From the NCBI RefSeq assembly GCF_001517975.1, contig NZ_KQ950181.1, forward strand, positions 600,542 to 642,448: DNA of 41,907 nucleotides. Direction: 5' to 3'. A model generated the notes under the pieces. The model was not told the origin of the DNA, did no database searches, and worked only from the letters and a program-made list of their open reading frames with translations. The translations under genes were made by a program, and so were the position numbers. Within the stretch, counting starts at the first letter, position 1; each line of letters starts with the position of its first letter. Positions 5,995 to 24,711 of the stretch are shown in pieces. The DNA comes from Thermobifida cellulosilytica TB100 (GTDB lineage: Bacteria > Actinomycetota > Actinomycetes > Streptosporangiales > Streptosporangiaceae).

Positions 5995-6663
5995 TCACGC
6001 CGCGCCCATGCCCAGGCCCATCTTGGACCCCAGACCCATCTTGGACCCCAGGCCCATGCGGGAACCCGTCTTGGCTCCCATGCCCATGCGCGAGCCCATC
6101 GCCCGCATGAACCCCAGCTTCTGCTGGGTGGCCTTCTGCTGTTCGCCGTGCAGGGCGTTGAGCACCACCAGGGCGCCGGTCAGGGCGGGCACCGCCCACT
6201 GCGCGATCCGCAGCTTGCGCGAGGTGTCCTCCAGCGTCTCGGGGCTGTTCGCGGAGGACGCGCTGTCGAGCGGCTCGGGCGAGGTGGCGGCCTCCTCGGC
6301 GCGCCGTCCCAGCATCCGGGAGTAGGCGGTGGCGCCCAGCGCCGCGGCGGTCACCGCGGTCTTGGCGACGGTCGAGGCGCCCACGCCCTTCTGGTTCATC
6401 ACCCGTTCCCGGTTGGCGCCCAGCAGTCCGGCGCCGCCGACCAGGTGCGCGCCGATCGCGACGAGGTTGAGCGGGGCCCACTTGTCCCATCCCGCGCCGG
6501 AGATGCGGATCGACTCGTTGAGTCCTTTGGACTCCTGGTCCGCGGCCTTGTTCAGACCGACCGCCCCCATGAGGGAACCGCCGAACCACGCGGCCAGGCC
6601 CAGGTCGTGCAGTCCGCGCACCACGGTGTTGCGCTGGGCCATCTGCATCATCTGCATCTGCAT
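5995..6663 (-). CDS. Hypothetical membrane protein with Met/Gly repeat tail
   Basis: The ATG at 6663 has GGAGG about 10 bases upstream; 222 residues. The N-terminus is Met/Gln-rich (MQMQMMQMAQR). Hydrophobic stretches follow around LGLAAWFGGSLMGAVGL, LVAIGAHLVGGAGLLG, TAVTAAALGATAY and WAVPALTGALVVLNAL, suggesting three or four membrane spans. The last 30 residues are a tandem repeat of a motif like SRMGMGAK / SKMGLG, carried by a roughly 21-bp DNA repeat near 6010-6090. I do not recognise a characterised family. It converges on the GH3 gene and shares its terminator. Function unknown. Confidence 0.7.
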   Translation of the reverse strand: MQMQMMQMAQRNTVVRGLHDLGLAAWFGGSLMGAVGLNKAADQESKGLNESIRISGAGWDKWAPLNLVAIGAHLVGGAGLLGANRERVMNQKGVGASTVAKTAVTAAALGATAYSRMLGRRAEEAATSPEPLDSASSANSPETLEDTSRKLRIAQWAVPALTGALVVLNALHGEQQKATQQKLGFMRAMGSRMGMGAKTGSRMGLGSKMGLGSKMGLGMGAA

Positions 6664-7209
6664 CGCAAGCGCCTCCAAAGGCGAGAAGCAGGGTCGAAGG
6701 TCGTGCGGCCCGCTAGCCGAGAAAGCCCAAAGCAATCACTGCTTCGTGTATGGATTTCCCTTCGCGGTCCCTTTGTCCGAGGGGTCTGCTTTGCTCCGGA
6801 CAGCAGGGCAGGGGCGGCGCCGGTGCGGCCGTGGACGGTGGAGCGGACCTGGTCGGGTGCGCCGGGTGGTTGGTGTGGAGTCCTTCAGTGCGTGACTCCA
6901 GGCTTTCGGGGCCCCGGTGTCCGTGGCCGAGGACGGTCCGTGGGCCGCGTCCCACCGCCAGTCCTCCCCGGGGGACCGCAGCCGCCCGCTGCCATGTCCT
7001 CGGCCCGCAGCCACCAGACCGGTCGGGACGGGAGGCTCGCACCGTCTCCACCGGTGGACCGAGTGGGCGTGGGGTGTGTGCGGTCCAGTGGCCGTGTTGC
7101 CTGCAACAAGCCGGTACAGGAACCGGTTTTCAGGGGACGTTTGCGGACGGACGACACAGAAGACCGGCAAGGAGAGGTCCCTTTTCCGCGCTGCAGATAT
7201 TCCATAACA
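6664..7209. other. Intergenic region without a supported gene
   Basis: About 550 bases upstream of both the minus-strand membrane gene and the plus-strand regulator operon. Open frames here have no ribosome sites and no protein-like composition. A short inverted repeat (TGTCCG near 6773, CGGACA near 6797) could be a hairpin. The last part, from about 7190, turns AT-rich and leads into a promoter. Confidence 0.5.
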
Positions 7210-7257
7210 CGAATATTCGCGAAATTCGTTGACGTGCTTCGGTGATGGCCGTAAGTT
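7210..7257 (+). promoter_or_regulatory. Promoter with upstream palindrome for regulator operon
   Basis: TTGACG (7229-7234) and TAAGTT (7252-7257) with 17 bases between them make a good vegetative promoter. Transcription would start about 30 bases before the 7291 gene. Just upstream is a perfect 10-bp palindrome, CGAATATTCG (7210-7219), followed by the related GCGAAATTCG. This could be an operator for the XRE protein of the same operon; that is inference. Confidence 0.6.
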
Positions 7258-7290
7258 CGTTTCGCCGTCCCCCATAGCGGAGGTACACCA

Positions 7291-7476
7291 GTGGAACTGG
7301 TCAAGATCGCCGGTACCTGTTCGAAAGACGACTGCCCGAACGTGTTCACGACAGACCGTGGAACGATCGCAGTCCAGGGCTATCTGGTCGCTGGACTCAC
7401 CATCCCGGAAGGCGAGGCCGTTGTGGAGATCCCCCTGGAGCTGTTGAGGGAGGCCGCGCGTGCGCTTGGGACGTGA
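7291..7476 (+). CDS. Small conserved protein, first gene of regulator operon
   Basis: The GTG at 7291 has a good site GCGGAGG seven bases upstream; 61 residues. A Cys pair (CSKDDCP) near the N-terminus is followed by beta-strand-like sequence (TIAVQGYLVAG, AVVEIPLELL). Its 3' end overlaps the DUF6879 gene by 17 bases. Small proteins of this kind often accompany XRE/DUF5753 regulators in actinobacteria and may act with them as a partner or antagonist. No activity can be assigned. Confidence 0.75.
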   Translation: MELVKIAGTCSKDDCPNVFTTDRGTIAVQGYLVAGLTIPEGEAVVEIPLELLREAARALGT

Positions 7477-7993
7477 GGAGTGGCGCGAGTTCTTCGACTC
7501 CTACACCGATTACGCCTTCCGACTGGAGACGCTGCCGGTCTACAAGGTTGCGATCGAGGACGATGAGTACCGTCGTTTCCTGGCAGGGGAGAAGCGACCC
7601 GAAAGCGAACTGCACACCGACGAGTGGCTGCGACGAGTCTCCGGCTACGTCGCCTCGGGGCGACGGCTTCAACGGGTCCACGTGATCACCCCGCCGCTGA
7701 CCGAGTATCTGCGCTACGAGTTCGAGTGGGGCTACGACTTCAACGTGCGGGTAGGAGAGGAGATCGGAATCATCGACACCACCGAGGCTCCGGAGCTTTC
7801 CTTCCCGGCACATGAGGACTTCTGGCTGTTCGACGACAAGCATGTGGTGCTGATGCGCTATGAGGAGGACGGCACCCAGATCGACCGTCTGTTGCTGGAG
7901 GACGTCGACGTCGACGAGTACATCGCCCGCAAGGATGCGGCGCTCGCCATGGCCACCCCCTACCAGGAGTACCGGGCTAGGCTCGACGGATAG
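7460..7993 (+). CDS. DUF6879-like protein
   Basis: The GTG at 7460 lies six bases after GAGGGAGG; 177 residues. The protein is acidic with a pattern typical of actinobacterial DUF6879 proteins: WREFFDSYTDYAFRLETLPVY at the start, RVHVITPPLTEYLRYEFEW in the middle, and an acidic DFWLFDDKHVVLMRYEEDG segment. Genes of this family usually sit beside XRE/DUF5753 regulators, as here: its TAG overlaps the next GTG by one base. The biochemical role is unknown; a modulator of the neighbouring regulator is a reasonable inference. Confidence 0.75.
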   Translation: MRLGREEWREFFDSYTDYAFRLETLPVYKVAIEDDEYRRFLAGEKRPESELHTDEWLRRVSGYVASGRRLQRVHVITPPLTEYLRYEFEWGYDFNVRVGEEIGIIDTTEAPELSFPAHEDFWLFDDKHVVLMRYEEDGTQIDRLLLEDVDVDEYIARKDAALAMATPYQEYRARLDG

Positions 7994-8832
7994 TGCTGGA
8001 ACCAGAAGATCTCGGTAAACGCAAGAGTGACCTCGCACAGGAGTTGCGACGGCTGCGCAGGCAAGCTGGTCTCACGGGAGACCGGCTTGCCGCGCGTGCG
8101 GGTATGAGTCAGAGCAAGATCTCCAAGATCGAAACTGGCAAGATTCTGCCCTCGCTCCTCGACGTGGAGCGCCTCCTCCGCGCGCTCGGTGCCGAGCCGC
8201 GGGTCGTGGAGGAGCTGTCCGCACTCGCTCGCCGCGCCAACACCGACTACCAGGACTGGAAGGCATCCCTGCGCAGAGGCCTTCACCACAAGCAGCAGGA
8301 GCTTGCCACCCTGGAAGCCACTTCCTCGCGGTTCCGCTATTTCCTACCCGCGATGATCACCGGCCTGCTCCACACTCCCGAGTACGCCAGAGCCAGTCTC
8401 GCCACCACCCGGGGGGACCATTCCAAGGCCATAGCCAGACGTCTCGATCGACAGGCGGTGCTTTATGAGGAGGACAAGCACTTCACCTTCATCCTGACCG
8501 AACAGGCCCTGCGATGGCCACTCTGCCGGGGGAAGGCCATGTCGGTTCAGATGGGGCGTCTTTCTTCTCTTTCGGAACTGCCGAATGTTCGTATCGGAGT
8601 CATTCCGCTCCGGTCGTCTCCGATCCCCGAAGGGCCGCTCACCACGTTCACGATCTACGACGACGCTTTGGCTACCGTAGAGATGTTCACCGGGGCCCTG
8701 CTGCTCCGTGACCCTCGTGACGTCCACTACTACCTGGAACTCTTCGCTTCCTTCGAGCGCGCAGCTCTCTTCGATGGCGCAGCTCGCGGATTTATCGCGA
8801 ACATCGCCGAGGACTTCCGCAACCAGTCCTGA
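7993..8832 (+). CDS. XRE-family regulator with DUF5753 domain
   Basis: DNA-binding regulator of 279 residues. An HTH_31-type domain occupies about residues 12-70 (AGLTGDRLAARAGMSQSKISKIE). The rest is DUF5753, the ligand or partner domain of WhiJ/AbaA-like actinobacterial regulators (LLHTPEYARA, RRLDRQAVL, LPNVRIGVIP, DPRDVHYYLELF). It starts with GTG overlapping the previous stop, so translation is coupled. It ends 132 bases before the lasso precursor and is the obvious candidate controller of that cluster, though many such regulators control distant genes. Confidence 0.88.
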   Translation: MLEPEDLGKRKSDLAQELRRLRRQAGLTGDRLAARAGMSQSKISKIETGKILPSLLDVERLLRALGAEPRVVEELSALARRANTDYQDWKASLRRGLHHKQQELATLEATSSRFRYFLPAMITGLLHTPEYARASLATTRGDHSKAIARRLDRQAVLYEEDKHFTFILTEQALRWPLCRGKAMSVQMGRLSSLSELPNVRIGVIPLRSSPIPEGPLTTFTIYDDALATVEMFTGALLLRDPRDVHYYLELFASFERAALFDGAARGFIANIAEDFRNQS

Positions 8833-8964: not shown

Positions 8965-9081
8965 ATGGACGAGGAGATCTATCAGCCCCCCGAACTGGTC
9001 GAACTGGGAGACGCCCGTGAAGTGACGCTGGGAGCGGCGGACGACGACACCGCCGACATGAACACGGCCAAGTACTACTAG
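8965..9081 (+). CDS. Lasso peptide precursor
   Basis: A 38-residue precursor with ATG after GGAAGGAAAAG. The leader (1-22) carries the recognition motif Y6-x2-P9-x-L11-x3-G15 used by RRE proteins, and Thr21 at position -2 of the cut site. The predicted core is GAADDDTADMNTAKYY. Gly1 would form the macrolactam with Asp9, the only acidic residue at ring positions 7-9, leaving a 7-residue tail ending in two Tyr that could plug the ring. Asp6-Thr7 inside the ring is the dipeptide expected to become an aspartimide under the methyltransferase at 11767. The following genes supply cyclase, RRE protein and protease. From memory this matches the cellulonodin-2/lihuanodin class; I could not compare the sequences. 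Confidence 0.92.
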   Translation: MDEEIYQPPELVELGDAREVTLGAADDDTADMNTAKYY

Positions 9082-9157
9082 GCCGCTCTGTCCGCAGGAA
9101 CTGCGGAACAGCCGTTTCGGCGACGTGGGTGAGCAAGCGGATCTCAGCCGCAGGACG

Positions 9158-9185
9158 GGGTGGGCCTCCCATGAGAGGCCCACCC
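9158..9185 (+). terminator. Hairpin between precursor and processing genes
   Basis: A perfect 11-bp inverted repeat (9158-9168 and 9175-9185) with a 6-base loop lies between the precursor stop and the cyclase start. Such hairpins often act as partial terminators or protect the short precursor transcript, giving more precursor than enzyme. The cyclase ribosome site (GAAGGA) follows within 15 bases. Confidence 0.65.
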
Positions 9186-9207
9186 TTCAAACCGAAGGAA
9201 CGCGTCC

Positions 9208-11046
9208 ATGGCGATACGGAAGTTCTTCATCGGGTCCGTGCGGAAAGCCGCCGGAAGGCGGCAAACCCACAGATCGATACCACTGGCCGAGCAGCACACA
9301 CTAACCCTGGTCGGTGAATGGCCGGAATCCAGGGTTCGACGGTTGCACGCTGAGGGACGCCACGTGACCCTGCTAGGGGAATGCTTCGCCTCCGACCAAA
9401 ATCTTGTAGACGCCCTGACCGATGACGCTTCCCTCCCCGAAGCCGCGGAGGCGTTGGCAAGACTGGCGGGCTCTTACAGCACTGTTGTCACCGACGGAGT
9501 AACCACAGCGGTCACAGGAGACATCGCGGGTCTGCACCGGATCTGGTTTCGCCGTGGTGAAAGAGAAGTCCAGTACGCGTCCAGCCCACTCCCACTGGCT
9601 GCCATGAATGGGTACCGCCTGGATCAGGAGGCACTGGCCGCCCACTTGTTCTGCGCCGAGTTCAGTCCAAGCCTGGGCGGTGATTCGCTGTTCGACAGCG
9701 TCAGAGCGCTGGCACCAGATCAGATACTTCTCGTCCGGAACGGCACGGCAACGGTACTGCGACGCATGTTCCCGACCGAGCAGACGGGCTTCTTCGCCGC
9801 GAGCACAGCACTTCGTCATGCTCTGCAGGAGAGCGTGCACCACCGCACCACGAAAGCTGCCGCTGTTTCTGCAGACTTCTCCGGTGGTCTGGACTCCTCC
9901 ACGCTGGCACTGCTCGCAGCTCAGCACCACCAGGAACCAATACAAGTGGTCACCTACGCCGACCCGTTCGCCCGCAACGACGACGACATCGTCCATGCGG
10001 CGCGTTTCGCAGGAATGGAGTCCTCTCTGAGGCAGACCGTTGTCGAAGGAACCACGCAAACTCTGCCCTTCACCAACATGGCGGCAACGCCGTTCACAGA
10101 GGAACCCAGCCTCGACTCGGTCATCTACGCCCGTGACCGAGCCCGGCTTCTACCCGTCGTGGGCACCTCGGTGCACTTGACCGGAGACGGAGGCGACGTG
10201 GTGCTCGGAGCCCCTCTCACCTACCTTGCTGATCTGGCTCGTCCACGTCATCTGCTCCGCTTCCTCCGAGAGTCCGGGGCCTGGGCAAGACTTCGCCACC
10301 GGCCGGTACACCGTGTTGTGCAAGCCGCCGTGGACACCGCCCGCACAAGCTATTCCGCCACACTCACACACCTGGCCCACGAACTGGAGAGCAACGATCC
10401 CCCTGAATGGAGGCGTCACCCGGCTGTCGAACGCAACATCGTGTGGGCGTCCCTCTCCCGAGCGGCAGACTGGGGGACCCGTGCGGCGCGGACAGCCGTG
10501 GCAGAACGCCTCCGCCGCGCAGCCGAAACCGTGACAGGTATTGAAGGGGCCGACGCACACACACTACGCACGATCCATCGGCACACGGCTGCCTCCCGGT
10601 CCTTCATCGATATCGCCGAACACCTGGGTGTGCAGATCGCCATGCCCTTCTTCGACAACCAGGTCGTGGCAGCCTGCCTCAGCGTTCCTGCCACGCAACG
10701 GGCCTCGGTCGACCGGGTCAAACCTCTGCTCGGGGCAGCTATGACCGGTCTGCTTCCCCCTGAACTGTTCGAACGGCGAACCAAGGGCGACTACAGCGCC
10801 AGTGAGTACCACGGAATCCGCCGCAATGCGGCAGCGCTGCGCTCCTTACTCCGGGATTCCCGGCTCGGTGATCTCGGAATCATCGATCCTTCTTCGGTGC
10901 TGCGCGAACTGGAGGCCGCAGCCAGCGGTGCATACGCGGCGATGGCCTCCCTCGGGGAGGTGTTCGCCTTCGAGGTGTGGTTGCGCGGACTTGACCACCA
11001 ACCCCGTGTGTCTTTCTCCCCATCGACGCTGCTGGAGGTGTGTTGA
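9208..11046 (+). CDS. Lasso peptide cyclase (asparagine synthetase B homologue)
   Basis: Activates the ring acidic side chain (predicted Asp9 of the core) with ATP as the adenylate, so the core N-terminus can attack to form the macrolactam. The ATG at 9208 follows GAAGGA; 612 residues, normal for lasso C proteins. The N-terminal glutaminase-like fold has lost the catalytic Cys, as expected since ammonia is not used. The synthetase domain has the PP-loop SGGLDSS (225-231), the LTGDGGDVVLGAP segment and a late helical region (HLGVQIAMPFFDNQVV, RRTKGDYSASEYHG) typical of the family. It overlaps the next gene by one base. Confidence 0.93.
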   Translation: MAIRKFFIGSVRKAAGRRQTHRSIPLAEQHTLTLVGEWPESRVRRLHAEGRHVTLLGECFASDQNLVDALTDDASLPEAAEALARLAGSYSTVVTDGVTTAVTGDIAGLHRIWFRRGEREVQYASSPLPLAAMNGYRLDQEALAAHLFCAEFSPSLGGDSLFDSVRALAPDQILLVRNGTATVLRRMFPTEQTGFFAASTALRHALQESVHHRTTKAAAVSADFSGGLDSSTLALLAAQHHQEPIQVVTYADPFARNDDDIVHAARFAGMESSLRQTVVEGTTQTLPFTNMAATPFTEEPSLDSVIYARDRARLLPVVGTSVHLTGDGGDVVLGAPLTYLADLARPRHLLRFLRESGAWARLRHRPVHRVVQAAVDTARTSYSATLTHLAHELESNDPPEWRRHPAVERNIVWASLSRAADWGTRAARTAVAERLRRAAETVTGIEGADAHTLRTIHRHTAASRSFIDIAEHLGVQIAMPFFDNQVVAACLSVPATQRASVDRVKPLLGAAMTGLLPPELFERRTKGDYSASEYHGIRRNAAALRSLLRDSRLGDLGIIDPSSVLRELEAAASGAYAAMASLGEVFAFEVWLRGLDHQPRVSFSPSTLLEVC

Positions 11047-11321
11047 TGACAGCTGTCAAGCCGGCCTCGAACGTGTGTTCCGTGGCTACCGACGACGGAG
11101 CGGTACTCCTGGACCTCGGCACCGGGAAGTTTTTCGGGCTCAATCCGACCGCTGCGGTGATCTGGGCCGAGCTCGCCACCGGCAAGGACATGGCCGCGCT
11201 TGTACCGGAGTTGGCGTCCAGATTCGAAGTTGGCGAGGAACGGATGAAAACCGATATTCGTGAGCTCGTTGAGGTTCTGCGCCGACACCGTCTCATCGAC
11301 GAGAGAAGGACAGCCAAGTGA
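11046..11321 (+). CDS. Lasso RiPP recognition element protein (B1, PqqD-like)
   Basis: Binds the precursor leader and delivers it to the protease and cyclase. The ATG at 11046 lies a suitable distance after GGAGG; a GTG at 11040 in the same frame is a weaker alternative. 91 residues with the PqqD fold: beta strands (GAVLLDLGTGKFFGLNPTAAVIW) and then the winged-helix part (LASRFEVGEERMKTDIRELVEVLRRHRLI, shown in part). It overlaps the protease gene by 4 bases (GTGA), so B1 and B2 are probably made together, the split arrangement common in actinobacteria. Confidence 0.92.
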   Translation: MTAVKPASNVCSVATDDGAVLLDLGTGKFFGLNPTAAVIWAELATGKDMAALVPELASRFEVGEERMKTDIRELVEVLRRHRLIDERRTAK

Positions 11322-11737
11322 GCATGCACATGGCTCTGCCTCCTCCTCCCACCGTCCGGCTGAAAATCCGGCATCGTGCCGCGGGTCTGCTCGGCTTCGT
11401 ATTGGCCCTGGTACTGCTCAGATTTCCCATAGGTCGTGCCGTGGTGGTTGTCACCCGAGTCAAAAATTGTGTGGCTTCCCCTGCCTCCCCGGATGAGGCC
11501 CTGACCGCGGTGGTTGCGGCCAGGAACGCGGCCCGCTGGTTTCCTGGCCGGGCGGCCTGTCTGGAGAATTCCCTGGCCGCCACATTCACTTCTCTTCTGC
11601 TGCGTCGCCGTCTCGACTGGTGTATCGGGGCGCGACTCATGCCCTACGCCGCGCACGCCTGGGTTGAAACCGGTAACCGACCTGTGGGGGAACCCCACAC
11701 ACCAGATCGCCCCTATCTACTGCTGCTTCGTGTATGA
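11318..11737 (+). CDS. Lasso leader peptidase (B2, transglutaminase-like)
   Basis: Removes the leader after Leu22 so that cyclisation can proceed. 139 residues, GTG start overlapping B1. The family triad is visible: Cys81 in RAACLENSLA, His113 in AAHAWVE, and a likely Asp130. The N-terminal half is more hydrophobic (LLGFVLALVLLRFPIG), as in many B2 proteins. The gene ends 29 bases before the methyltransferase. Confidence 0.9.
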   Translation: MSMHMALPPPPTVRLKIRHRAAGLLGFVLALVLLRFPIGRAVVVVTRVKNCVASPASPDEALTAVVAARNAARWFPGRAACLENSLAATFTSLLLRRRLDWCIGARLMPYAAHAWVETGNRPVGEPHTPDRPYLLLLRV

Positions 11738-11766
11738 CCCACCACACCTTCTTGGAAAGGCCTGCC

Positions 11767-12792
11767 ATGTCCATCAGTCCGCCTATCGCTGCCGCTCTGG
11801 CCACTGTCGACGAGGACTACTACACGCGCCGTCCCGACGGGAGCGTGCTCGCCCAGACCACGTCGGCGCGGACGATCGCGCGCATGCTGGACGCACTCGA
11901 CGTCCGCCCCGGACACCGAGTGCTGGAGATCGGCACCGGGTCGGGATTCTCCGGTGCCCTGCTGCGGGAACTGGTCGGCGAAACGGGACAGGTCGTGTCG
12001 GTGGACGTGGTGGCGGACCTGGTCGACCGGGCCCGTGACCTGCACACCAAGCGCGGGCGCGAGGACATCGACGTGCTCCTCGGCGACGGACTCCTGGGAG
12101 CGCCCACCCGCGGCCCGTTCGACCGGATCGTCGCCTGGGCGAGCGCCGAACGCATCTTTCGGGCCTGGGTGGAGCAGAGTGTCGCGGGCGCGGTGCTGGT
12201 GGTCCCGGTCGAACTGACCGCGCGGGTGCGCACCACCGCGATCGTCCGCCTGCACACCACCCCTGGCGGCGACCCGGTCGCGGACAAGGTGTTCGCAGGC
12301 GGCTACGTGGAGATGCACTCCGAAGAACTCACCCAGTGGCTGGTGCCGCCCCGGGGCGTCGACGCGCTCGTCCACGACACGCAGGGGCAGCCGTGGTGGC
12401 TCTCCGCCGACTGGGCCGGACGGGACCGGGCTGCGGCCGAACACCTACTCGCTCTTCTCGGTACCGGGGCCGAAGCCCGTCCCCTGTTGGCAGAGGACGA
12501 GTCGGGGCAGGACTTCGTGGCGTTCCTGTACGCCACCCGCCCGGAGGAGTTCGGCGTGGTCGGCCTGGGACAGACCGGATGGCGGCTCGGCGTCACCAGC
12601 CCGTCCGGGGCCGCGCTGGTCACCAGACGCCAGGCCAGTGACGCCGTGTGCGCGGGAGAACAGACCGCGTTCGACCGTCTGTGTTCCTGGGTGGAGGAAT
12701 GGAGGACAGCGGGTCGGCCCGGCTACGCGGACCTGCGCCCCGTGCTGTACCGGCAGGCCGACGGCTGGACCGTGCGCGCGGAGTTGGTCTGA
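11767..12792 (+). CDS. Lasso peptide O-methyltransferase, PIMT homologue
   Basis: Predicted to methylate a ring Asp side chain of the lasso peptide; the ester is then attacked by the next backbone amide to give an aspartimide. The ATG at 11767 has GGAAAGG upstream; 341 residues, clearly longer than housekeeping isoaspartyl methyltransferase (about 220). Residues 1-215 are the PIMT domain with SAM motif VLEIGTGSGFSG (52-63) and the LAQTTSARTIARML region. The last 125 or so residues are a C-terminal extension (HDTQGQPWWLSADW, WRLGVTSPSG) that I recall as characteristic of lasso-associated members and may bind the folded substrate. Codon use is more GC-rich than in the preceding lasso genes. Confidence 0.9.
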   Translation: MSISPPIAAALATVDEDYYTRRPDGSVLAQTTSARTIARMLDALDVRPGHRVLEIGTGSGFSGALLRELVGETGQVVSVDVVADLVDRARDLHTKRGREDIDVLLGDGLLGAPTRGPFDRIVAWASAERIFRAWVEQSVAGAVLVVPVELTARVRTTAIVRLHTTPGGDPVADKVFAGGYVEMHSEELTQWLVPPRGVDALVHDTQGQPWWLSADWAGRDRAAAEHLLALLGTGAEARPLLAEDESGQDFVAFLYATRPEEFGVVGLGQTGWRLGVTSPSGAALVTRRQASDAVCAGEQTAFDRLCSWVEEWRTAGRPGYADLRPVLYRQADGWTVRAELV

Positions 12793-12836: not shown

Positions 12837-14252
12837 TCAGGCATTCAGTCTGTCCAGGGCGGCCTGAATCCGGTGCAGGGTGCGGTCACGGCCGAGGACT
12901 TCCAGTGACTCGAACAGCGGCAGCCCGACGGTGCGGCCGGTCACGGCAACCCGTACCGGGGCCTGGGCCTTGCCGAGTTTGAGGCCGTGGCCCGCCCCGA
13001 CCTCCTCCAACGCGCTCTTCAGCGAGGCGGCCTCCCAGGCCAGCGCCGGATCGGTGAAGCGGTCGAGCGTATCGGCGAGCACCGGTCGGGCGGTGTCGGA
13101 CCGCATCGCCTTGGCCCAACTCTTCTCGTCCCGCACCGGTTGCTCCAGGAACAGGAAGTCGACGTAGGCGGCGATCTCACCGAGCACGGAGACACGGCTC
13201 TGCGCCAGCGGCGCCACCCGGGCGAAGGTGGCCGCGTCGTAGGCCTCCTTCGGCCAGGGCACGTTCTCGGCGTGCAGATAGGGGGTGCAGCGTTCGACGA
13301 ACTCCGTGGTGTCCAGGGCGCGGATGTACTCCCCGTTGAACGCGCGCAGTTTCTTCTCGTCGAAGAAGGCCGGAGAGGAGTTGACGTCGGCCAGGTCGAA
13401 CAGCGGCACCATCTGGTCCAACGGCATGATCTCGCGGTCCTCGCCCGGGGCCCAGCCCAACAGCATCAGGTAGTTGACCATCGCCTCGGGTAGAAAGCCC
13501 TCGGCCCGGTAGGACTCCAGGGAGACCTTGTCACGGCGCTTGGACAGCTTCTGCCGCCTGTCGTTGACCAGCACCGGCGCGTGCGCCCACACCGGCGGGA
13601 TGTGTCCCAGGGCCTGCCACAGCAGTTGCTGCTTGGGTGTGTTGGACAGGTGCTCCTCACCGCGGATGACGTGGGCGATGCCCATCTCGGCGTCGTCGAC
13701 CACATTGGCCAGCACGAACAGCGCCGAACCGTCACCGCGGGCGATGACGAAGTCCTCCAGTGCGGAGTGCGGAAACTCCACCCGACCCCGAATCCGGTCC
13801 TCCACCACCGTGGTGCCGCCCTCAGGAACCCGGAACCGCAACGCCCGGCCCGCCGCGGCCTCCAGGCCCCGCTCCCGGCAGTGGCCGTCGTAGCCGAGGT
13901 TGGGATTGTCACGGCGCTGCTGCACCTGCTCGCGAGTGCAGTCGCAGTAGTAGGCCAAACCCTCCGCGAACAGGCGCTGGGCGGCCTTGGCGTGCTTGGC
14001 GGCGTAGTCGGTCTGGAAGTAGGGGCCCTCGTACTGGCTGTCGTCCACACCCAGCCAGGCCATGGCCTGCAGAATGCCCTCGGTCCACTCGGGACGGGAG
14101 CGGGCCGTGTCGGTGTCCTCGATCCGCAGCACCATGGTTCCACCGGATTGTCGCGCGACCACCCAGTTCAGCAGTAGCGACCGGGCGTTGCCCACGTGGA
14201 ACATGCCGGTCGGTGACGGAGCGAACCTGGTGCGAATCGAAGAGTCAACCAC
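12837..14252 (-). CDS. gltX: Glutamyl-tRNA synthetase
   Basis: Charges tRNA-Glu with glutamate. 471 residues, GTG start at 14252 with a weak ribosome site. Class I motifs are present: the HIGH equivalent is HVGN (residues 19-22, in [13 protein letters not shown]) and the KMSKS equivalent is KLSKR (235-239). Cys103, Cys105 and Cys125 lie where zinc ligands sit in some family members. The rest is the anticodon-binding helical domain. HVGN is an unusual form of the signature; whether this is the only gltX in the genome or a second copy beside the lasso cluster cannot be told from the window. About 290 bases upstream hold no gene. Confidence 0.92.
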
Positions 14253-16171: not shown

Positions 16172-17443
16172 TCACCCGCTCAGGTCGGAAACCAGCAGGT
16201 CCAGAGCGGACTCCTCGTGGACGGCCACTCCCAGGGAGTGCATGGCCGCCGCCAGTTCGGGGTCCCAGTCAGCCTCGCGGGCGGGACCGGAGAGCGGATT
16301 CAGCGGAGTCCTCCGCTGCCGGGCGCGGGTGACGTGCTCCTCGTAGTCACCGGCGCGCATCCGCCACGGTTGGACGTTGTAGCGGGTCACCAGGCGGTTC
16401 ATCATCGCCACCCCGGGCCAGTCGAAGTCGCAGCGTCCGTGCAGCACCGCTCCGGCCGCGCAGAGCGCGTCCAGCAGGGTGAGAACCACCGTCGTGGCGT
16501 TGCCCGAGGTGCACACGACCGGTGCCGCGCAGCCGTGGTCTGCGGCGGCCTCCACGATCCGAGGATTCTCGCAGACGTACACCACCGGATCGGTTCCGGG
16601 GAAGTCCCACCGCAGCCGGCGGAGGTCCCGCAGGCTCAGATGGGTCTCGGCATGGTGTTCGGCCCGTTCGCGGAGTTGTCGGGCGAGCCAGTCCGGGCCG
16701 GCGGGGCGCAGACCGTACGTCAGCACGGTGCTGGACACGTTGTCCGTGCTCACCCCGGCCTCGGCCCACAGCCAGCGGCGTTGCGCGGCGTCGGCAGGCA
16801 GTGGAAGGTCCAGGGCCAGGGCGAGGGCACGCTGTACGGTCCGTGCCAGCAGCGAGGTGTCGTCGAGGCCGTGCGCGGTGCCGGTGACCCGCTCGGCGAG
16901 TTCGTGGCGTCCCACGGTCCCCGTGCCGTTCCCGGAGAGTGCGGGGATTCCCTCCAGCACACGTACGGCCCGATCGACGAGGTCGGCTGCCTCCGTCGGG
17001 GTCAGACGGCCCAGGATTCCCGACCGGAAGAGTTCGTCCAGCCACTGCTGCACCCAAGGGTCCGCCCCCAGGCGTGCGGCACTCGACTGGGCGGACTCGC
17101 GCAGATGCTGTCGCGCGTCTCTTTGATCGCGCAGCTCACGGGGGCGGTCGGTGATCGTGCCGCGTAGTTCGGCCACCACGTCCACCAGACCGCGCCGGGC
17201 GGCGCTGGCCCGCAACCGGGCGTCGAGGTCCGCCAGGTCCACGGTCACGTTCTCGGCCGTGAGAGTGCGTCGCATCAGCAAGGACAGCGCCTCGCGTTCC
17301 TCCGGAGTCGTTTCGGGCACGCGCAGCCGTCCCCGCACCGCCAGCCCGTTGCGGCGCAGCCGGTCGTGCAGCAGGTCCCACAGCCGCGACAGTTGCGGCC
17401 GGTCGAGGTGGCGTCGGATCTGCGGGGGCAGACCGTCGGTCAT
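16172..17443 (-). CDS. jetD: Wadjet nuclease subunit JetD (TIGR02679, Toprim)
   Basis: Nuclease of the SMC-based anti-plasmid system; it cuts closed circular DNA once the SMC motor has extruded it. 423 residues, ATG overlapping the jetC stop by 4 bases. The Toprim-like acidic residues are present: Glu292 in YVCENPRIVEAA and the DxD pair Asp339/Asp341 in GRCDFDWPG. The N-terminal half is helical and basic, as in TIGR02679/DUF2399 proteins. The residues needed for metal-dependent cleavage are intact, so activity is expected. Confidence 0.88.
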   Translation of the reverse strand: MTDGLPPQIRRHLDRPQLSRLWDLLHDRLRRNGLAVRGRLRVPETTPEEREALSLLMRRTLTAENVTVDLADLDARLRASAARRGLVDVVAELRGTITDRPRELRDQRDARQHLRESAQSSAARLGADPWVQQWLDELFRSGILGRLTPTEAADLVDRAVRVLEGIPALSGNGTGTVGRHELAERVTGTAHGLDDTSLLARTVQRALALALDLPLPADAAQRRWLWAEAGVSTDNVSSTVLTYGLRPAGPDWLARQLRERAEHHAETHLSLRDLRRLRWDFPGTDPVVYVCENPRIVEAAADHGCAAPVVCTSGNATTVVLTLLDALCAAGAVLHGRCDFDWPGVAMMNRLVTRYNVQPWRMRAGDYEEHVTRARQRRTPLNPLSGPAREADWDPELAAAMHSLGVAVHEESALDLLVSDLSG

Positions 17444-20400
17444 GTGGAGACCAGCCTCCGTTCCCTGCCGTTCCAGGTGAAGTGGACGGTGGCGACCCCG
17501 CGCCGGGCCGGGTCGCGCAGGCACTCGTAGATGTGCAGGTCGGGGACGTTGGGAAAAGTGCCCCACAGGCGTTCGCTGGTGATGACGAAGTCGAGGTCGA
17601 AGTCGATGAGCAGCCCCAGCAGGCGGGCGTGGGTGGGCTCGTCGACCTTGGCGAAGGCGTCGTCGAGCAGGATGAGCCGGGGGGCGTGCGGCGCGGTCTC
17701 GGCCAGCGAGGTGAAGTGCGACGCCGCCGCCGCGAACAGCAGCAGGTAGCTGATCACCCGCTGTTCCCCCTGGCTGAGCGCGATGCGGTGGTTGAATGCG
17801 CGGCGGCTCTTGCCGTCCGCGCCGAGTACGTAGGGGTGGAACTCGAACCAGGTGCGGTAGTCCAGGGCCGCCCGCAGGTGCACCCCGTATCCGGCGGTGG
17901 GATCGTCGCGGCGGATCGTCTCGATGTGCCGCCGCAGCGCGTCGCGCAGCCGTGCGGCGTCGTCCGGGTGGCGGGTGGCGGAGGTCTCGTCGAGCAGTGC
18001 GACGGCGAGTTGGACGTCGGGGGAGGCGCCAGGAGAGAGCTTCCACTCCACGGTGGCTCCCATGCCGTGCGAGGAACGCACGTCCTGCAGGGTCCGGTTC
18101 ATCCGCTGCACCGCCTGGCGGGCCTGGAGCAGTTGGTGGGTCAGATGGTCACCCAGTTCGCCGAGCAGGTACCGCTGGAACACCTCCTGTTCCCGGGCGG
18201 AGACGCGGTCCCGGTCGGCTGCGAGGTTGGCTTCGAGCCGCTGTCCCACGGTCGCGATGTCGTGGGTTCCGGTGTCGTCGGCCAGCTCCCACATCTGGAT
18301 GTCGCCGTGCGCCAGGCGGAACGTGGCGTCATAACCGCCGGCGAGCCGGTCCTTGAGTTCGTTGCCCCGATTGAGCAGCGTGTTCGCGGAGACGTCGGAC
18401 TTGGGCGGGCCGAGTGCCGCGGCGACCTCGCCGGCGAGTCGTGCCAGTGCTGCGATGCGGTCGCGTACCGGCCCCTCCTGGGCGGCGTCGAACCGGTCGA
18501 CCATGTCGGCCGCACCGGTGATGCCCGCGGCGGCGGCCAGGCCGGGCGAACCGAGGGGGCCGAGCAGGCGACCGGCCGCCTCAACGGTGGCAGCCTCCTG
18601 CTGCGCGCGGGCCTCGGTGGCGCGACGGTGTTCGACCTCGGCGGCGATCCGGCGGTCGTGAAGGTCCTGGACGTGCCTGGTCAGCCGGGGCAGGTGCTGC
18701 TCGGCGGCGCCGATGCGCCTGCGCAACTCGGCTTCCCGCTGCCGCAGCTCCTCCTCGCCCGCGCCCAGGGAATCGCGGAGAAGAGCGAGCTTCCGCTGTT
18801 CGGTGGTGAGGCGGTCGAACGCGGAGGTGTAGTCGTCCACGGCGTGCTGCACCGTCTCACCGGTTGCGGCCAGGGCGGAGCGGGACACCTCGAACTTCTC
18901 GACCGCCCCGGCCAGGCGTTCCACGTCGTCGACGAAACGGGCCAGTGTCCCCTGGAATCTCTCCAGCGCCACAGCCAGGCGGTCCAGTCCGTCCGCCTCC
19001 TCGGGGAGCCGTTCAGAGCTCGCCTTGGCGCGCGCTCTGGCGTGTGCGGCGGTGGCCTCGGCCCGGGTGGTCTCAGCCCGACGGCGGGCCGTGCGCAGCT
19101 TTTCGGCGGCTGTTGCGATGTCGTCCTCGGTGAGCCGGTGGGCCTCCCAGGCGCTGACGAACGCGCGGCTGGACGGCAGAGCGCCCAGCGCCCGCCGCAG
19201 TCCTTCCCGGCGTTCATCGATCGCGGCCAACTGGTCAGCGAACGCCTCGGCTGCGGCCCGGGCCTCCTCCAGCCGCGCGGTGAGGTCGGCGATCCGGCGG
19301 CGGCGGGTTTCGGCGCGCACTCCCGCGCCGACGTACTCGGCCTGCTGTTTGCCGTGCGTCCCACGCAGCGGGCCCAGTCGCCAGCGGCCGTCCAGAGCCA
19401 CCCAGTGCTCAGCGGCCGTCTCGGTGCCGGCGAGCGCGATCGTGCGCAGCACGTCGGCGACGGCGGTCTCGGACACCGTTTCGGTGGCGACGGGGCGAAG
19501 CACGTCGGCGAGACTGGGACCGTCCACCGGCCGCCCCGGGACGGCGAGGAGATCGCGGGTGCGGGAGTCGCGCAGCCGCCCCGCCGGATCCAACCACGCG
19601 GACAGCAGTCCGCTCGCCTGGAGAGCCGCTTCGAGCCCGGCGCGTTCGGCCGCATCGAGGTGGTCGGCGAAGTCGACCAGACGGTACAGCGCGGCCCCTG
19701 CGTCCTCGGGGCGTGGTGCCACGGCCCAGTCCGGGCGGGGTGGTTCCGGGTCGGCGCGCCGCTGCCACTCGGCGAGTTCCCGTTCCAGGTCGGCGGCCCG
19801 CTGCGCTGCCGCCTGACCTGCGGCGCCGACCCGGTCGCGTTCGGTGTCGAGCTCGGCCAGGCGCGGGGCCAGCAGGAGGCGGGCGGCCTCGGCGACCTGT
19901 TCGGGCGTTTCGGGGCCGGGGACGCGGTCGGCGACGCTGCCTTCGGTCTCTGCGCCGACCGCGGCGAGGGCCACGACGGGGCGGCTCTCCTGCGACGGGG
20001 TCTCGGGGAGCGCCTCGGCCCAGGAGCGGACGGCTTCGGCGTACCGCTCGGCGTGCTCCAGCAGCGCGGCGGCGTGTTCGGTGTGCCGTTCGTGGGCCCG
20101 CGCCAGTTCGTCCTCGCAGCGGTCGGCTTCGGCCTCGGCGCCACGGGCCACGTGCCAGGCCTGCTCGGCCTGTTGGAAGAGACTGCGGACGTCGGCGACG
20201 GTGCGGACGTGGTTGCGTCTGATCTGCTCCACACCGTGCAGCTTGGCGGCCGTGTCCCGCAGGTGTCCGGCCAGCCTGTCAGGCAGGGCGGCGAGCCGAG
20301 GACGGGCGATCTCGACCCGTTCGCCGTCGGGCGAAGTCAGCGGGGTGCTGGGGACGGCGGTGGACGTGTCGCGGACCGGTTGGGGGAGAGTGCCCAGCAG

Positions 20401-21651
20401 CGTCCCGTCGATGCCGCAGTGGTGCGCGGCGTCACGGAGGCCGCGCTGCCGGTCCCGGAGGTCGACAAGGGCCTTGGCGATCGTGGTGAATTCCTCGGTG
20501 AGCCGCTCGGCCTGGCCATGTTCGGTGGTGAGGGTGCGGTGCAGTCCCTGCCAGGTGTTCACCGCGCCGGTGTGCAGCGCCCGCACGGTTTCCTGCTTCT
20601 CGCGCAGGTCGCCGAGGGCCTGGTAGGCCGAACTGTTGACCAGGGTGGCCAGGTCGCCGCGGGCCGTTTCCAGTTGGGCGGCGACCGTTTCCGCCTCGGC
20701 CGCAGCCTCCCGTTCCCGCTCGACCAGTTCGGCGTGTTCGCGTTGCCGATCTCCTGCCGCGCGCCGTCGCTGCGCCAGCTCCCCGAGGAAGCCGCGGACG
20801 TCGTCGACCCGCCCGCGCAGCACTCCATGCAGGTAGCGGCGGTAGTCGCGGAGGAACTGTGCCACGGCCGTGGTGGTCTGCTCCAGCCGGGCCAGTTCGT
20901 CGCGGACGCTGTCCAGGTCGTTGAGGTTGCGGGCGACGGTGTCGATGATCTCGTCGTCGAGCGGGGGAAGGGATTCGTCGAGGATCTTGGTGAGTTCTCC
21001 GGCGAGCACCCGGTCGCCGACCGTCGGCTTGCGCAACTGGTAGAGCAGGTGCAGGAGATTGTGGTACTTGCCGCTGTCCTGCACACCGAACAGGCGGCGC
21101 ATCACCTCGGCGCGGTAGGCGCTCGCCTGGGTGAAGTGGCAGCCCTCGCCGACGGTCTCCCGGAGTTCCCGGACGGTGGGCCTGCGGGTGCGGTCGTGCA
21201 GGGGCAGTCGGGGGCCGACGGGGATGTCGGTGATGAAGTACTCGGCGTCGGCGCGTTTCGCGCTCTGCGACGCGGTGATCGCTGCGCCGAGGGTCAGCAG
21301 GTGCTCCCGGCCCTCGGGGTCGGTGCGGTGGAACTCCACCCACAGGTAGCCGAGGCGGTTGACGCTGTCCCGGTAACCGTCGAGCATCAGCCACTTCAGC
21401 GTGGTCTTGCCGCTTCCGGTGGAGTCGATGGACCGGGTACGGCCGTCCAGCAGGAACGGCAGCAGCATCTCCAGCGCCTTGGACTTGCCCGCGCCGTTGG
21501 TGCCGCGCAGCAGCAGCCGTCCCGTGCCGAAGTGGAACACCTGGTCGTACTGCCACACGTTGTGGATACCGGCCCGGTGCAGGCGGAACCGGTGCGGGAA
21601 GCCGAGCGGGCGCGGGGCGGGCAGTGGGCGGACGGCTCCGGTGTCGCTCAT
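17440..21651 (-). CDS. jetC: Wadjet SMC ATPase JetC (TIGR02680)
   Basis: Motor subunit related to MukB/MksB, predicted to extrude DNA loops. The ATG at 21651 overlaps the jetB stop by 4 bases; longer upstream readings lack a ribosome site. 1403 residues. Walker A is GTNGAGKS (50-57), the ABC signature LSQGEQ begins near 1292, and Walker B LILLDD starts near 1326. Between lie two long coiled-coil arms rich in Glu, Arg and Ala, around a central hinge region near residue 650-760. All ATPase motifs are intact over 4.2 kb, with no frame break. Confidence 0.92.
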   Translation of the reverse strand: MSDTGAVRPLPAPRPLGFPHRFRLHRAGIHNVWQYDQVFHFGTGRLLLRGTNGAGKSKALEMLLPFLLDGRTRSIDSTGSGKTTLKWLMLDGYRDSVNRLGYLWVEFHRTDPEGREHLLTLGAAITASQSAKRADAEYFITDIPVGPRLPLHDRTRRPTVRELRETVGEGCHFTQASAYRAEVMRRLFGVQDSGKYHNLLHLLYQLRKPTVGDRVLAGELTKILDESLPPLDDEIIDTVARNLNDLDSVRDELARLEQTTTAVAQFLRDYRRYLHGVLRGRVDDVRGFLGELAQRRRAAGDRQREHAELVEREREAAAEAETVAAQLETARGDLATLVNSSAYQALGDLREKQETVRALHTGAVNTWQGLHRTLTTEHGQAERLTEEFTTIAKALVDLRDRQRGLRDAAHHCGIDGTLLGTLPQPVRDTSTAVPSTPLTSPDGERVEIARPRLAALPDRLAGHLRDTAAKLHGVEQIRRNHVRTVADVRSLFQQAEQAWHVARGAEAEADRCEDELARAHERHTEHAAALLEHAERYAEAVRSWAEALPETPSQESRPVVALAAVGAETEGSVADRVPGPETPEQVAEAARLLLAPRLAELDTERDRVGAAGQAAAQRAADLERELAEWQRRADPEPPRPDWAVAPRPEDAGAALYRLVDFADHLDAAERAGLEAALQASGLLSAWLDPAGRLRDSRTRDLLAVPGRPVDGPSLADVLRPVATETVSETAVADVLRTIALAGTETAAEHWVALDGRWRLGPLRGTHGKQQAEYVGAGVRAETRRRRIADLTARLEEARAAAEAFADQLAAIDERREGLRRALGALPSSRAFVSAWEAHRLTEDDIATAAEKLRTARRRAETTRAEATAAHARARAKASSERLPEEADGLDRLAVALERFQGTLARFVDDVERLAGAVEKFEVSRSALAATGETVQHAVDDYTSAFDRLTTEQRKLALLRDSLGAGEEELRQREAELRRRIGAAEQHLPRLTRHVQDLHDRRIAAEVEHRRATEARAQQEAATVEAAGRLLGPLGSPGLAAAAGITGAADMVDRFDAAQEGPVRDRIAALARLAGEVAAALGPPKSDVSANTLLNRGNELKDRLAGGYDATFRLAHGDIQMWELADDTGTHDIATVGQRLEANLAADRDRVSAREQEVFQRYLLGELGDHLTHQLLQARQAVQRMNRTLQDVRSSHGMGATVEWKLSPGASPDVQLAVALLDETSATRHPDDAARLRDALRRHIETIRRDDPTAGYGVHLRAALDYRTWFEFHPYVLGADGKSRRAFNHRIALSQGEQRVISYLLLFAAAASHFTSLAETAPHAPRLILLDDAFAKVDEPTHARLLGLLIDFDLDFVITSERLWGTFPNVPDLHIYECLRDPARRGVATVHFTWNGRERRLVST

Positions 21652-22985
21652 CGGGCACCGCCTTTCGGGGAGGGGGTGGTGTGTCGGCGTGGCCGGTCGG
21701 TGCGGCCGGACGTGGTGGGGCGGTAGCGTGCCGCGGCGGCGAGGAGCACCCAGTGGCCTGCCTCGGGCCGGGGCGGTGGTGTGGCGAGCTGTCCGCGTGC
21801 GTTGCTCACGTCGGTGACCTGGCGATTGGGGTGTTCCGCGGCGGTGTCCCGCTCGCGAGCGGCGCGTTCGGCCCGGGTGGGGGCCACGGGGGCCATGAGC
21901 CGCATGTCGCACAGCAGGCGGCACACGTCGGCGCGGAGCGTGCTCACGTCGGTGACGTAGCTTTTGGCCCAGGCCGAGGCGTACTCGGCCGCGAGGTCGG
22001 TCAGGATCGCGTCGAGGCGTTCGGTGGGGACGGCCACCCCGATGACGAGTGTGCCGCCCGTGGCGGGATGGCCGGCCTGTTCGGGGCGCTCGGTCTCCAG
22101 CAGCCGTTCGACGAGCAGCAGCGCGGCCTGGGCGACCGTGCCCGTTCCGGGGAAGTCGATGTCGCTGAAGTCGTCCTGGTCACGGACCAGGGCGACCCCC
22201 TCGGCGCGGATCTCCAGGTCGGCGCCGAGGATCTCGTGGAAGTTGAGCTGTTCGCGGCGCTGGTTCCGGCGCAGCCAGGCGCGTTCGGTCTCGTCGAGGT
22301 CGTCCAGGTAGACGACGGGGGTTTCCACGATGCGCCGCCGCACCGCGAGCCGGGGGCTGTCGCGGTCCGGACGTTCGGCGGCGCGGAGGAACTCCTCGGG
22401 AGTGCGGGAAGCGCCGAGCGGGCCGCTGACGATGCGGCGTGCGAGGTCGGTGTCGATGGTGAGCAGGGCTTCGCGCTCGTCGTCGGCGAGCAGTGCGTCG
22501 ACGCTGCCCTCGGTCTCGGTCAGCACGTCCCATTCGATGAGCGTGCGCAGCGCGGCGGTCAGGTGCCGTTTCTGGGCGCCGTCGGGGTCGCCGAGGTCGA
22601 TCGCGGCGTCGGCCGCGGCGAGTCGGATCTCGGCGACGAGTTCGGACAGCAGCATCTGCTCGGGGGCGGTGACGGTGGCTGCGAGCGCGAGCACCAGGTA
22701 GGTGTAGGTGCGCGGGGAGAAGACGGTTCCGGTGGTGGCGCGGGTGAGCCTGCGGCCGCAGTCCGGGCCCAGACCGGGCTTGTGCAGGCGGGCGAAGCGG
22801 CCTTCGACGACCAGCCGGTAGCCGAGGAACTGGTGGAACTCGCTTTTGAGTTCGTCGGCATACCTGCGGACCAGGGAGAACCCCTCGGGGTCGCGCCGCG
22901 CGGTGAGGAGCGGGGTGCGCAGCAGCAGCCGCATCGCTTCGCGGATCTCGACCTTGGCGGCGCGGTCGTCGGCCAGTGGTTTCAT
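21648..22985 (-). CDS. jetB: Wadjet subunit JetB (TIGR02678, DUF2398)
   Basis: MukE-like kite subunit that with JetA links the SMC heads. 445 residues with ATG start; 4-base overlaps on both sides. Features of the TIGR02678 family include the early RRYADELKSEFHQFLGYRL region, TTGTVFSPRTYTYLVLALAA and the AERPDRDSPRLAVRRRIVET segment. The C-terminal tail (from about 410) is Pro/Arg-rich and probably disordered. Family assignment rests on gene order and these motifs. Confidence 0.85.
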   Translation of the reverse strand: MKPLADDRAAKVEIREAMRLLLRTPLLTARRDPEGFSLVRRYADELKSEFHQFLGYRLVVEGRFARLHKPGLGPDCGRRLTRATTGTVFSPRTYTYLVLALAATVTAPEQMLLSELVAEIRLAAADAAIDLGDPDGAQKRHLTAALRTLIEWDVLTETEGSVDALLADDEREALLTIDTDLARRIVSGPLGASRTPEEFLRAAERPDRDSPRLAVRRRIVETPVVYLDDLDETERAWLRRNQRREQLNFHEILGADLEIRAEGVALVRDQDDFSDIDFPGTGTVAQAALLLVERLLETERPEQAGHPATGGTLVIGVAVPTERLDAILTDLAAEYASAWAKSYVTDVSTLRADVCRLLCDMRLMAPVAPTRAERAARERDTAAEHPNRQVTDVSNARGQLATPPPRPEAGHWVLLAAAARYRPTTSGRTDRPRRHTTPSPKGGAR

Positions 22986-24577
22986 GATCCGGTCGCCTCC
23001 CGGGTTCTGGAGGAGCTGAGGTGGACGGTGCAGCCCTCCAGGACGAGGTCGCCGCCGCGGCTGTGCACGACCGTGGTCCGGTCGGCCTGCTCACGCACTT
23101 CCAGGCTGAGGCGCAGACCGGCGTCGGCGGTGCGGAACACGCGGGAACCCGGTTCTCCCGACGGCTGGGCCATGGCGCGTCCGAGCAGTTCGTTGAAGAG
23201 TTCGAACGCTGCGGCGGAGAAGACGACCGTGTCCTCCCGGCCCGCGGCCGCAACCAGTTCGGCGGCTCCGGCCGCGCGCCGCTCCTCCCGTTCCCGGGCG
23301 GTGCGCAGCAGGTCCCGGCGTGCTTGCGTGTAGTCCTCGCCTTCGCGCCGCACCGCGCCCCGGGGCCTGCGGTCGCCGCGTTCGCGGATGCTGACGGGGA
23401 CGTCGACGGGGTCGTCGTGCCACCAACTGGTGGAGCTGGTGGCGGTGTCCCGGTCACCGCGGGCGCCGCCGAGGTGGCGGACCCCGTACATGCCGAACGC
23501 GGCGGCGACGAGGTCGTGAGCCTGGGAGTCGTCGGCGGCGTCGACCCACCGGGCGAGCCGGAGCAGGTCGTTGCGGCGAGACAGTTCTCCCATGGCGGAG
23601 GAGCGCAGCATCCGCTTGGCGTTTCCCAGCAGCGACTGCAGCGCCTTCATGGTGGCCAGGCGCAGTTGGCCGACGCCGCTGCCCCGTCCGCCGGAGTCGA
23701 TGAACCAGCCGCGCAGTTCCTGCCAGTCGCGCAGGTGCCGTCCGCTGCTGCGGCGGATGCGGACGTCGGAGTCGCCGAGAGCGCTCAGTCCTTGGTCGGC
23801 GGCGTCGATGCGGGCCAGCAGGTCGGGCAGCACCGGCCACAGCCCGTCGAGCGCTTCGCGGATCACCGGGGTCTGGCGGGCCACGTCCTCGGTGATGGTC
23901 TCGGCGTAGTCGAGCAGCACGTCCTTGAAGACGCGGAACTCGGTGTCGCCGAGGTCGAAGCGGTTGAGGACGTGGCCGAGGTAGGCGTAGAACTCGCGGA
24001 CCGATTCCACGAACCGCTCGAACTGGGCGAAGATCGTGGAGACGCGGCCCAGGGCGTCCTGTCCGGCGACACCGCCGGGCTCCTGGGCGAGGTCGCGGAG
24101 GGCGGTGAGCCCCTCGGCGACCAGCCCCAGCAGTTCCCGGCTCACCTCGCGGACGGAGTCGGCGGCGAGGAGTTCGTCGCTGTGCCGCTGCACCATCTCC
24201 CCTGCGGGGGAGAGCTGGTAGCGGCCCCGACTGCGCTGGTACTCGGTGACGGTCGCGGCGCGCACCGGCCGTGCGCTCGGCAGCAGCGCACCCCAGGCAC
24301 GGAGCTGGTCAAGGCGCAGCGCGACCAGGTCGACAGGCTTGGGGTCCCCGCTGTGCGCGAGTTTCTCGGCGACTTCGTGCGCGGACAGGTCGGCCAGCAG
24401 CGTGCCGGTGAAGACCCGCATGACAGCGATGTAGTCGGCCCGTTCCGGCACGGTGAGGTAGGTGTAGGCGGTCAGCCGTGCGTAGTCGGGCGGCGCGGCT
24501 CCGGACGGCCCGGTGGGGGAGGCGCCGTCACCGCCCGGACCGGAGGGCTCGGGTCCGGCGCCGTGGGGTTCGTCCAT
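22982..24577 (-). CDS. jetA: Wadjet subunit JetA (TIGR02677, DUF2397)
   Basis: Kleisin (MukF-like) subunit, first gene of the operon. The ATG at 24577 is preferred; an in-frame TTG at 24595 gives six more residues. 531 residues. A Gly/Pro-rich start is followed by a winged-helix region (TYLTVPERADYIAVMRVFTG), a long helical middle (ARIDAADQGLSALGDSDVR, LRDWQELRGWFID) and a C-terminal beta-rich part. The region upstream (24578-24711) shows no clear promoter. The order jetA-B-C-D is that of the four-gene neighbourhood described for TIGR02677-02680. Confidence 0.87.
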   Translation of the reverse strand: MDEPHGAGPEPSGPGGDGASPTGPSGAAPPDYARLTAYTYLTVPERADYIAVMRVFTGTLLADLSAHEVAEKLAHSGDPKPVDLVALRLDQLRAWGALLPSARPVRAATVTEYQRSRGRYQLSPAGEMVQRHSDELLAADSVREVSRELLGLVAEGLTALRDLAQEPGGVAGQDALGRVSTIFAQFERFVESVREFYAYLGHVLNRFDLGDTEFRVFKDVLLDYAETITEDVARQTPVIREALDGLWPVLPDLLARIDAADQGLSALGDSDVRIRRSSGRHLRDWQELRGWFIDSGGRGSGVGQLRLATMKALQSLLGNAKRMLRSSAMGELSRRNDLLRLARWVDAADDSQAHDLVAAAFGMYGVRHLGGARGDRDTATSSTSWWHDDPVDVPVSIRERGDRRPRGAVRREGEDYTQARRDLLRTAREREERRAAGAAELVAAAGREDTVVFSAAAFELFNELLGRAMAQPSGEPGSRVFRTADAGLRLSLEVREQADRTTVVHSRGGDLVLEGCTVHLSSSRTREATGS

Positions 24578-24711
24578 GTTCCGCACGATAAGCAACCAGA
24601 CCGACTCTTTTGCGGGAAACCGGTGACTGGCCGGAAGCGGTCACGGGCCGGGGCTGCCCCGGGCGTGGGCGGGCCGCCTTCCCCACCGGCCCCGAGGGAT
24701 GAACGACCGAC

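Follow-up and report, generated by a model that had tools for sequence, protein, structure and literature searches.

Thermobifida cellulosilytica is a compost bacterium, and an aspartimide is a rare extra ring. Two aspartimide lasso peptides have been characterised according to the available part of the 2026 review PMC13001092, one of them being cellulonodin-2 from T. cellulosilytica. In both, the motif DTAD occupies positions 6–9 of the core, with Asp6 as the methylated residue and Asp9 as the one that forms the ring, and both methyltransferases carry a WXXXGXP motif; the same text defines group 1 lassimiditides by D(T/S)AD at core positions 6–9 (PMC13001092). For the methyltransferases TceM and LihM the threaded peptide is the sole substrate form, as given in the accessible portion of PMC9266682.

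The window (the whole stretch of 41,907 nucleotides analysed here) contains consecutive genes for a lasso precursor, a cyclase, an RRE, a B2 protease and a PIMT homologue, all on the forward strand, the next gene being gltX on the reverse strand:

8965–9081, forward strand: lasso precursor, 38 aa, ATG at 8965 and stop ending at 9081 (NCBIfam lasso_leader_L3, leader profile)
9208–11046, forward strand: lasso macrolactam cyclase, asparagine-synthetase-like, albusnodin/ikarugamycin family, 612 aa (NF033561)
11046–11321, forward strand: RRE, PqqD-like leader-binding protein (B1), 91 aa (Pfam PqqD)
11318–11737, forward strand: lasso leader protease (B2, transglutaminase-like), 139 aa (NF033537)
11767–12792, forward strand: PIMT homologue, lasso-type Asp O-methyltransferase, 341 aa, ATG at 11767 (PF01135)
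12837–14252, reverse strand: gltX, second glutamyl-tRNA synthetase, full-length, with catalytic and anticodon-binding domains

The precursor translates as MDEEIYQPPELVELGDAREVTLGAADDDTADMNTAKYY, with a predicted leader MDEEIYQPPELVELGDAREVTL and a predicted core GAADDDTADMNTAKYY of 16 aa. Its ATG is directly preceded by GGAAGGA, which resembles a ribosome-binding site, and the translation scores 31.3 bits with lasso_leader_L3 (cut-off 19). With a leader profile built without it, this ORF ranks first among the 629 ORF fragments of the window (E 1.5e-9, the runner-up having E 1.3), so it is no chance ORF. Thr stands at −2 of G1, as in lasso leaders, and the core reads D6-T7-A8-D9, with a predicted ring between G1 and D9 and a predicted aspartimide at D6, next to T7. 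The predicted monoisotopic masses are 1720.689 for the linear core, 1702.678 for the lasso and 1684.667 for the aspartimide lasso. Against PDB sequences the precursor gave weak matches only (the best one being the MS-271 precursor, E 1), and no fragment of the core appeared in the available portions of the literature matches listed.

The processing enzymes score above the cut-offs of their families, with 366.8 bits for the cyclase in NF033561 (cut-off 300), 76 bits for the B2 protease in NF033537 (cut-off 33) and 59 bits for the RRE in PqqD (cut-off 23.4), the latter also reaching 68.4 bits in lasso_PqqD_Strm, just below its cut-off of 70. The three genes lie adjacent to each other, as is required of a lasso cluster. 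No transporter gene was found among the genes examined beside it. Just upstream of the precursor there is a DUF6879 protein and XRE/DUF5753 regulator pair (window 7460–8832, forward strand).

The PIMT homologue scores 97.7 bits with PF01135 (cut-off 20.3) over residues 29–153, carries the SAM motif LEIGTGSG at residues 53–60 and extends some 190 residues past the PIMT domain, where WRTAGRP (residues 312–318 of the C-terminal domain) conforms to WXXXGXP. In an AlphaFold2 model made from an alignment (mean pLDDT 88, pTM 0.87) the residues following the PIMT domain are folded. The T. maritima PIMT (1DL5, E 1.3e-16) heads the PDB fold matches of this model, ahead of shorter PIMTs, and no PDB sequence match of the enzyme extends beyond residue 176. 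1DL5 is a two-domain protein that has the PIMT fold and a C-terminal extension in common with the window enzyme (PMC13001092, available part), but the placement of the domains differs, as judged from a TM of 0.51 and an rmsd of 9.7. The canonical PIMTs 2YXE and 3LBF have the same PIMT fold; unlike the window enzyme, neither they nor 1DL5 are lasso-linked. The preliminary description had read from the sequence a precursor with a lasso leader and Thr at −2, a predicted ring G1–D9 holding Asp6-Thr7, and, on one strand, a cyclase, an RRE, a protease and a 341-residue PIMT homologue with a C-terminal extension, and all of these elements are confirmed, the coordinates and lengths given there, Thr at −2 and Asp6-Thr7 being correct.

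Two features of group 1 lassimiditides are present in the window, namely DTAD at positions 6–9 and a PIMT homologue bearing an extra C-terminal domain and WXXXGXP. If the cleavage site, the threading, the order of steps and the product are carried over from the published cellulonodin-2 and lihuanodin, the RRE would bind the leader of the precursor, the B2 protease would cleave after Leu-22, and the ATP-dependent cyclase would link the amino group of Gly1 with the side chain of Asp9, closing the ring around the tail, so that a threaded lasso results. On this finished lasso Asp6 would be methylated by the PIMT homologue with SAM, and the backbone nitrogen of Thr7 would attack the Asp6 ester, methanol leaving and a stable ring aspartimide being formed. 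We infer by this analogy that the window peptide is made and bears an aspartimide. The earlier prediction of an aspartimide lasso peptide is supported, its G1–D9 ring, Asp6-Thr7 pair and WXXXGXP-bearing PIMT homologue matching the features described in the available part of PMC13001092.

A first contig scan with the methyltransferase alone as query returned no relative. Cyclase matches at E ≤ 1e-60 were found in 23 of 341 family genomes, the window's own included, and in 18 of the 22 other loci a methyltransferase homologue lies beside the cyclase, with WXXXGXP kept in every one of the 18. The other four loci (L050, L053, L055, and L057) have no methyltransferase within the stretch fetched, and position 6 of their cores is Gly, Gly, Gly, and Ser, respectively, the cores of L053, L055, and L057 being taken from translations with no profile-found precursor, and that of L057, which has a poor leader, being read by eye. 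Tabulated, the presence of the methyltransferase against that of Asp6 gives 18, 0, 0, and 4 (Fisher p 0.00014, a value that ignores relatedness and is not to be leaned on).

Named genomes were scanned with the methyltransferase alignment, keeping the best 80 of 311 relatives; a cyclase or B2 match is present in 59 of these 80, and the 21 loci with neither were left out. Overall, 81 lasso loci from the family and named sets (the latter being the best 80 of 311) were examined and a precursor was found in 62 of them, by means of a profile of leaders only (partly from the surveyed loci) with cuts at more than 3 bits, G, A, S or C as first core residue and a length of 12–32. Among the 19 loci that gave no precursor by profile, 16 have the methyltransferase; these gaps, the overlap between training leaders and surveyed loci and the common descent of the rows bias the core survey. 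Where two collections led to loci of the same genome, an identical core was the sole ground for merging them, and L140, with a DTAD core found by pattern, was left out of the counts. Beside a methyltransferase, each of the 46 distinct cores carries D6, Thr or Ser at position 7, and D9 (81 loci, named set limited to the best 80 of 311). G1 is present in all 46 as well, although the leader profile includes the G1 column. DTAD itself is found in 35 of the 46 and position 8 is K, E, Q, S, R or V in 10 (both with the same best 80 of 311 in the named set), so this position is freer than in the published D(T/S)AD motif. The finding of Asp6 with Thr/Ser7 in each core beside a methyltransferase, and its absence in the four related clusters without one, represents a check of the published chemistry.

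The non-Ala residues at position 8 belong to loci L046, L047, L048, L051, L052, L056, L092, L121, L128, and L142, with the motifs DSED, DSKD, DTKD, DTQD, DSQD, DSSD, DTRD, and DSVD. One of them, L128, comes from a cyanobacterium (Tychonema) and has its methyltransferase on the other strand. Another locus, L079, has precursor, RRE, B2 protease and methyltransferase, with no cyclase match in its 9.4 kb.

A comparison with the lihuanodin cluster had been recommended in the preliminary description, and the Lihuaxuella thermophila locus (L091) was recovered by name, with the core GSKYSDTADESSYRW. Lihuanodin (lih) has the ring G1...D6-T7-A8-D9 in common with the window core, and its methyltransferase is 34% identical to the window's over residues 7–327. 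However, its core has 15 aa compared to 16 aa in the window, its methyltransferase gene (6001–6948) is located before the core (7050) whereas that of the window is the last gene, and its cyclase is only ca. 23% identical to the window cyclase.

Cellulonodin-2 (tce) comes from T. cellulosilytica, the species of the window by an endomannanase match, and likewise has DTAD at 6–9 and a lasso-associated PIMT homologue with a C-terminal WXXXGXP, no difference from the window having been found in a comparison made by description and not by sequence letters. There are two B2 protease matches in the window genome and only that of the window is near a PCMT match, the other one, on contig C4, being ca. 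125 kb from the nearest PCMT match on that contig. Given the species, the DTAD motif, WXXXGXP and the fact that this is, by hits, the sole locus with both a PIMT homologue and a lasso protease, the window cluster is most likely the cellulonodin-2 cluster of T. cellulosilytica, or else no more than a strain variant, a reading by species and described features to which we assign a probability of about 0.92. The aspartimide lasso cluster of the window is already known and not new; the evidence by species and features points to cellulonodin-2 as the described peptide to which, as had been suggested from the sequence, this one may be identical or closely similar. Finding it from the letters alone was a correct rediscovery, to which the comparative check adds modestly.

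The window genome (4.43 Mb in 19 contigs) was compared within the genus through four genomes. For the endomannanase of T. cellulosilytica TB100 the primers are printed and the cloned enzyme has 424 aa (PMC4880297, available part). The gene ends implied by these primers match exactly in one of the four Thermobifida genomes, the window's own, where the end pair spans 1275 bp with one open frame of 424 aa to the stop, as published; one of the two end patterns has a second, unpaired match. It is on this one gene that we assign the window to T. cellulosilytica. The first cutinase of the window genome is identical over 259 residues to PDB 7qjt, presumably a cutinase of T. cellulosilytica TB100; the species assignment does not draw on this match. 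Cutinase 2 (deposited as 5luj, presumably that of T. cellulosilytica DSM 44535) does not fit the assignment, sharing 259 of 260 residues with G319, another genome, and 235 of 260 with the window genome. G319 has no match to the cyclase at E ≤ 1e-60 or to the methyltransferase at E ≤ 1e-30, so at these cut-offs it cannot be the source of cellulonodin-2. Cysimiditide, with two CXXCXGXG motifs, is also described from T. cellulosilytica (PMC13001092, available part). In the regions surrounding the 15 PCMT matches of the window genome, that of the window among them, no ORF carries two such motifs, and an ORF with a single CXXCXGXG lies beside the PCMT match at G000:C2:840865. The missing cysimiditide counts mildly against the assignment to T. 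cellulosilytica.

The cluster is present in a second Thermobifida species (G318), with 99.4–99.9% nucleotide identity over window 1–20428 and ca. 7 kb to its left, falling to 97.7% in the next 8.4 kb and to 88–95% further out; window 7102–7840 is missing in G318. By these identities the shared segment is a recently exchanged one. At the G318 locus (L035, on G318:C1) the cyclase gene is split by a frameshift, through either real decay or a sequencing error, and the precursor and methyltransferase are identical to those of the window. The cutinase of G318 is nearest to PDB 6aid and 3vis, presumably T. alba cutinases.

Both the chemistry and the identity proposed here have alternatives. The methyltransferase could yield isoAsp or repair damaged residues, in which case the mature product would be no aspartimide peptide; in the OlvA pathway, which makes a lanthipeptide, the PIMT homologue gives 70–80% isoAsp, and canonical PIMTs, which in the E. 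coli type have no extra C-terminal domain, repair isoAsp (PMC13001092, available part). Lassimiditides, however, revert to Asp by Thr7-guided hydrolysis and stay threaded according to the same text, and the conservation of Thr/Ser at position 7 (46/46 distinct cores beside the methyltransferase) and the lack of Asp6 in 4/4 related clusters without that enzyme also argue against such a product, which we consider very improbable. It is also unlikely, if somewhat less so, that the peptide differs from cellulonodin-2 in one or a few residues, as a close variant from another strain or a sister species that is so far undescribed. Such a variant would be compatible with a likeness established by species and features rather than by letters, with the misfit to T. 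cellulosilytica of the 5luj and cysimiditide comparisons, and with the named-genome scan, in which no Thermobifida record appeared among the best 80 of 311. Against this, the TB100 endomannanase agrees in both published ends and in length with the window genome alone of the four, and G318, the second species with the cluster, has a precursor gene without a single nucleotide difference, so that little variation of the precursor is to be expected. We thus retain the cellulonodin-2 cluster itself as the preferred reading.

A separate matter is the second gltX, which converges on the methyltransferase gene and is 73% identical to the other copy (G000:C1:481126–482541). As an immunity copy of the peptide target it would be part of the system, and cellulonodin-2 would act on glutamyl-tRNA synthetase or Glu-tRNA, which, if true, would be the first target of an aspartimide lasso peptide. 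Its being an extra copy, kept at the same place in G318, speaks for this possibility, as do the remains of broken gltX genes that Nocardiopsis algeriensis (L076) and Myceligenerans salitolerans (L080) have next to the methyltransferase. Yet these two, both broken, are the only cases of gltX-like sequence in the best 80 of 311 methyltransferase loci, and in the stretches fetched around the intact copies of the same type found in 17 further family genomes (78–80% identical) there is no match to cyclase, RRE or B2. Neither is there any co-occurrence beyond chance in genus g35, with 4 genomes having both the second gltX and the cluster, 6 the cluster only, 10 the synthetase only, and 20 neither (p 0.72; clusters were counted by cyclase match, plus G090 by hand, and some may be missed), leaving gltX as an immunity gene unsupported there. 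The segment shared with G318 at >99% far exceeds the cluster and is therefore no sign of a link between the synthetase and the lasso genes. Among the literature matches listed, no title or abstract opening links a glutamyl-tRNA synthetase to a lasso peptide. We consider it improbable that the synthetase gene belongs to the system, and equally doubtful that cellulonodin-2 acts on the synthetase or its product and is countered by this copy in the producer.

In 11 of the 17 loci with the second gltX type (L212, L213, L215, L217, L220, L222, and L224–L228) the synthetase converges on a divergent ORF grouped with it by blastp, often in an island with a sulfatase-like protein (just below the Pfam cut-off) and an archaeal-type S-adenosylmethionine synthetase. 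A broken second synthetase copy in G320 (L209) has one PIMT-domain match ca. 3 kb off, and no lasso gene there reaches E ≤ 1e-5.

According to PADLOC, the lasso cluster has as a neighbour a JetA2/B2/C2/D2-type Wadjet defence operon, which is complete (window 16172–24595, reverse strand). Some 2–5 kb past the right end of the window there is also a graspetide-type pair (L054, 8615–11571, reverse strand), formed by an ATP-grasp peptide maturase and a PIMT-type methyltransferase, both scoring just under the NCBIfam cut-offs.
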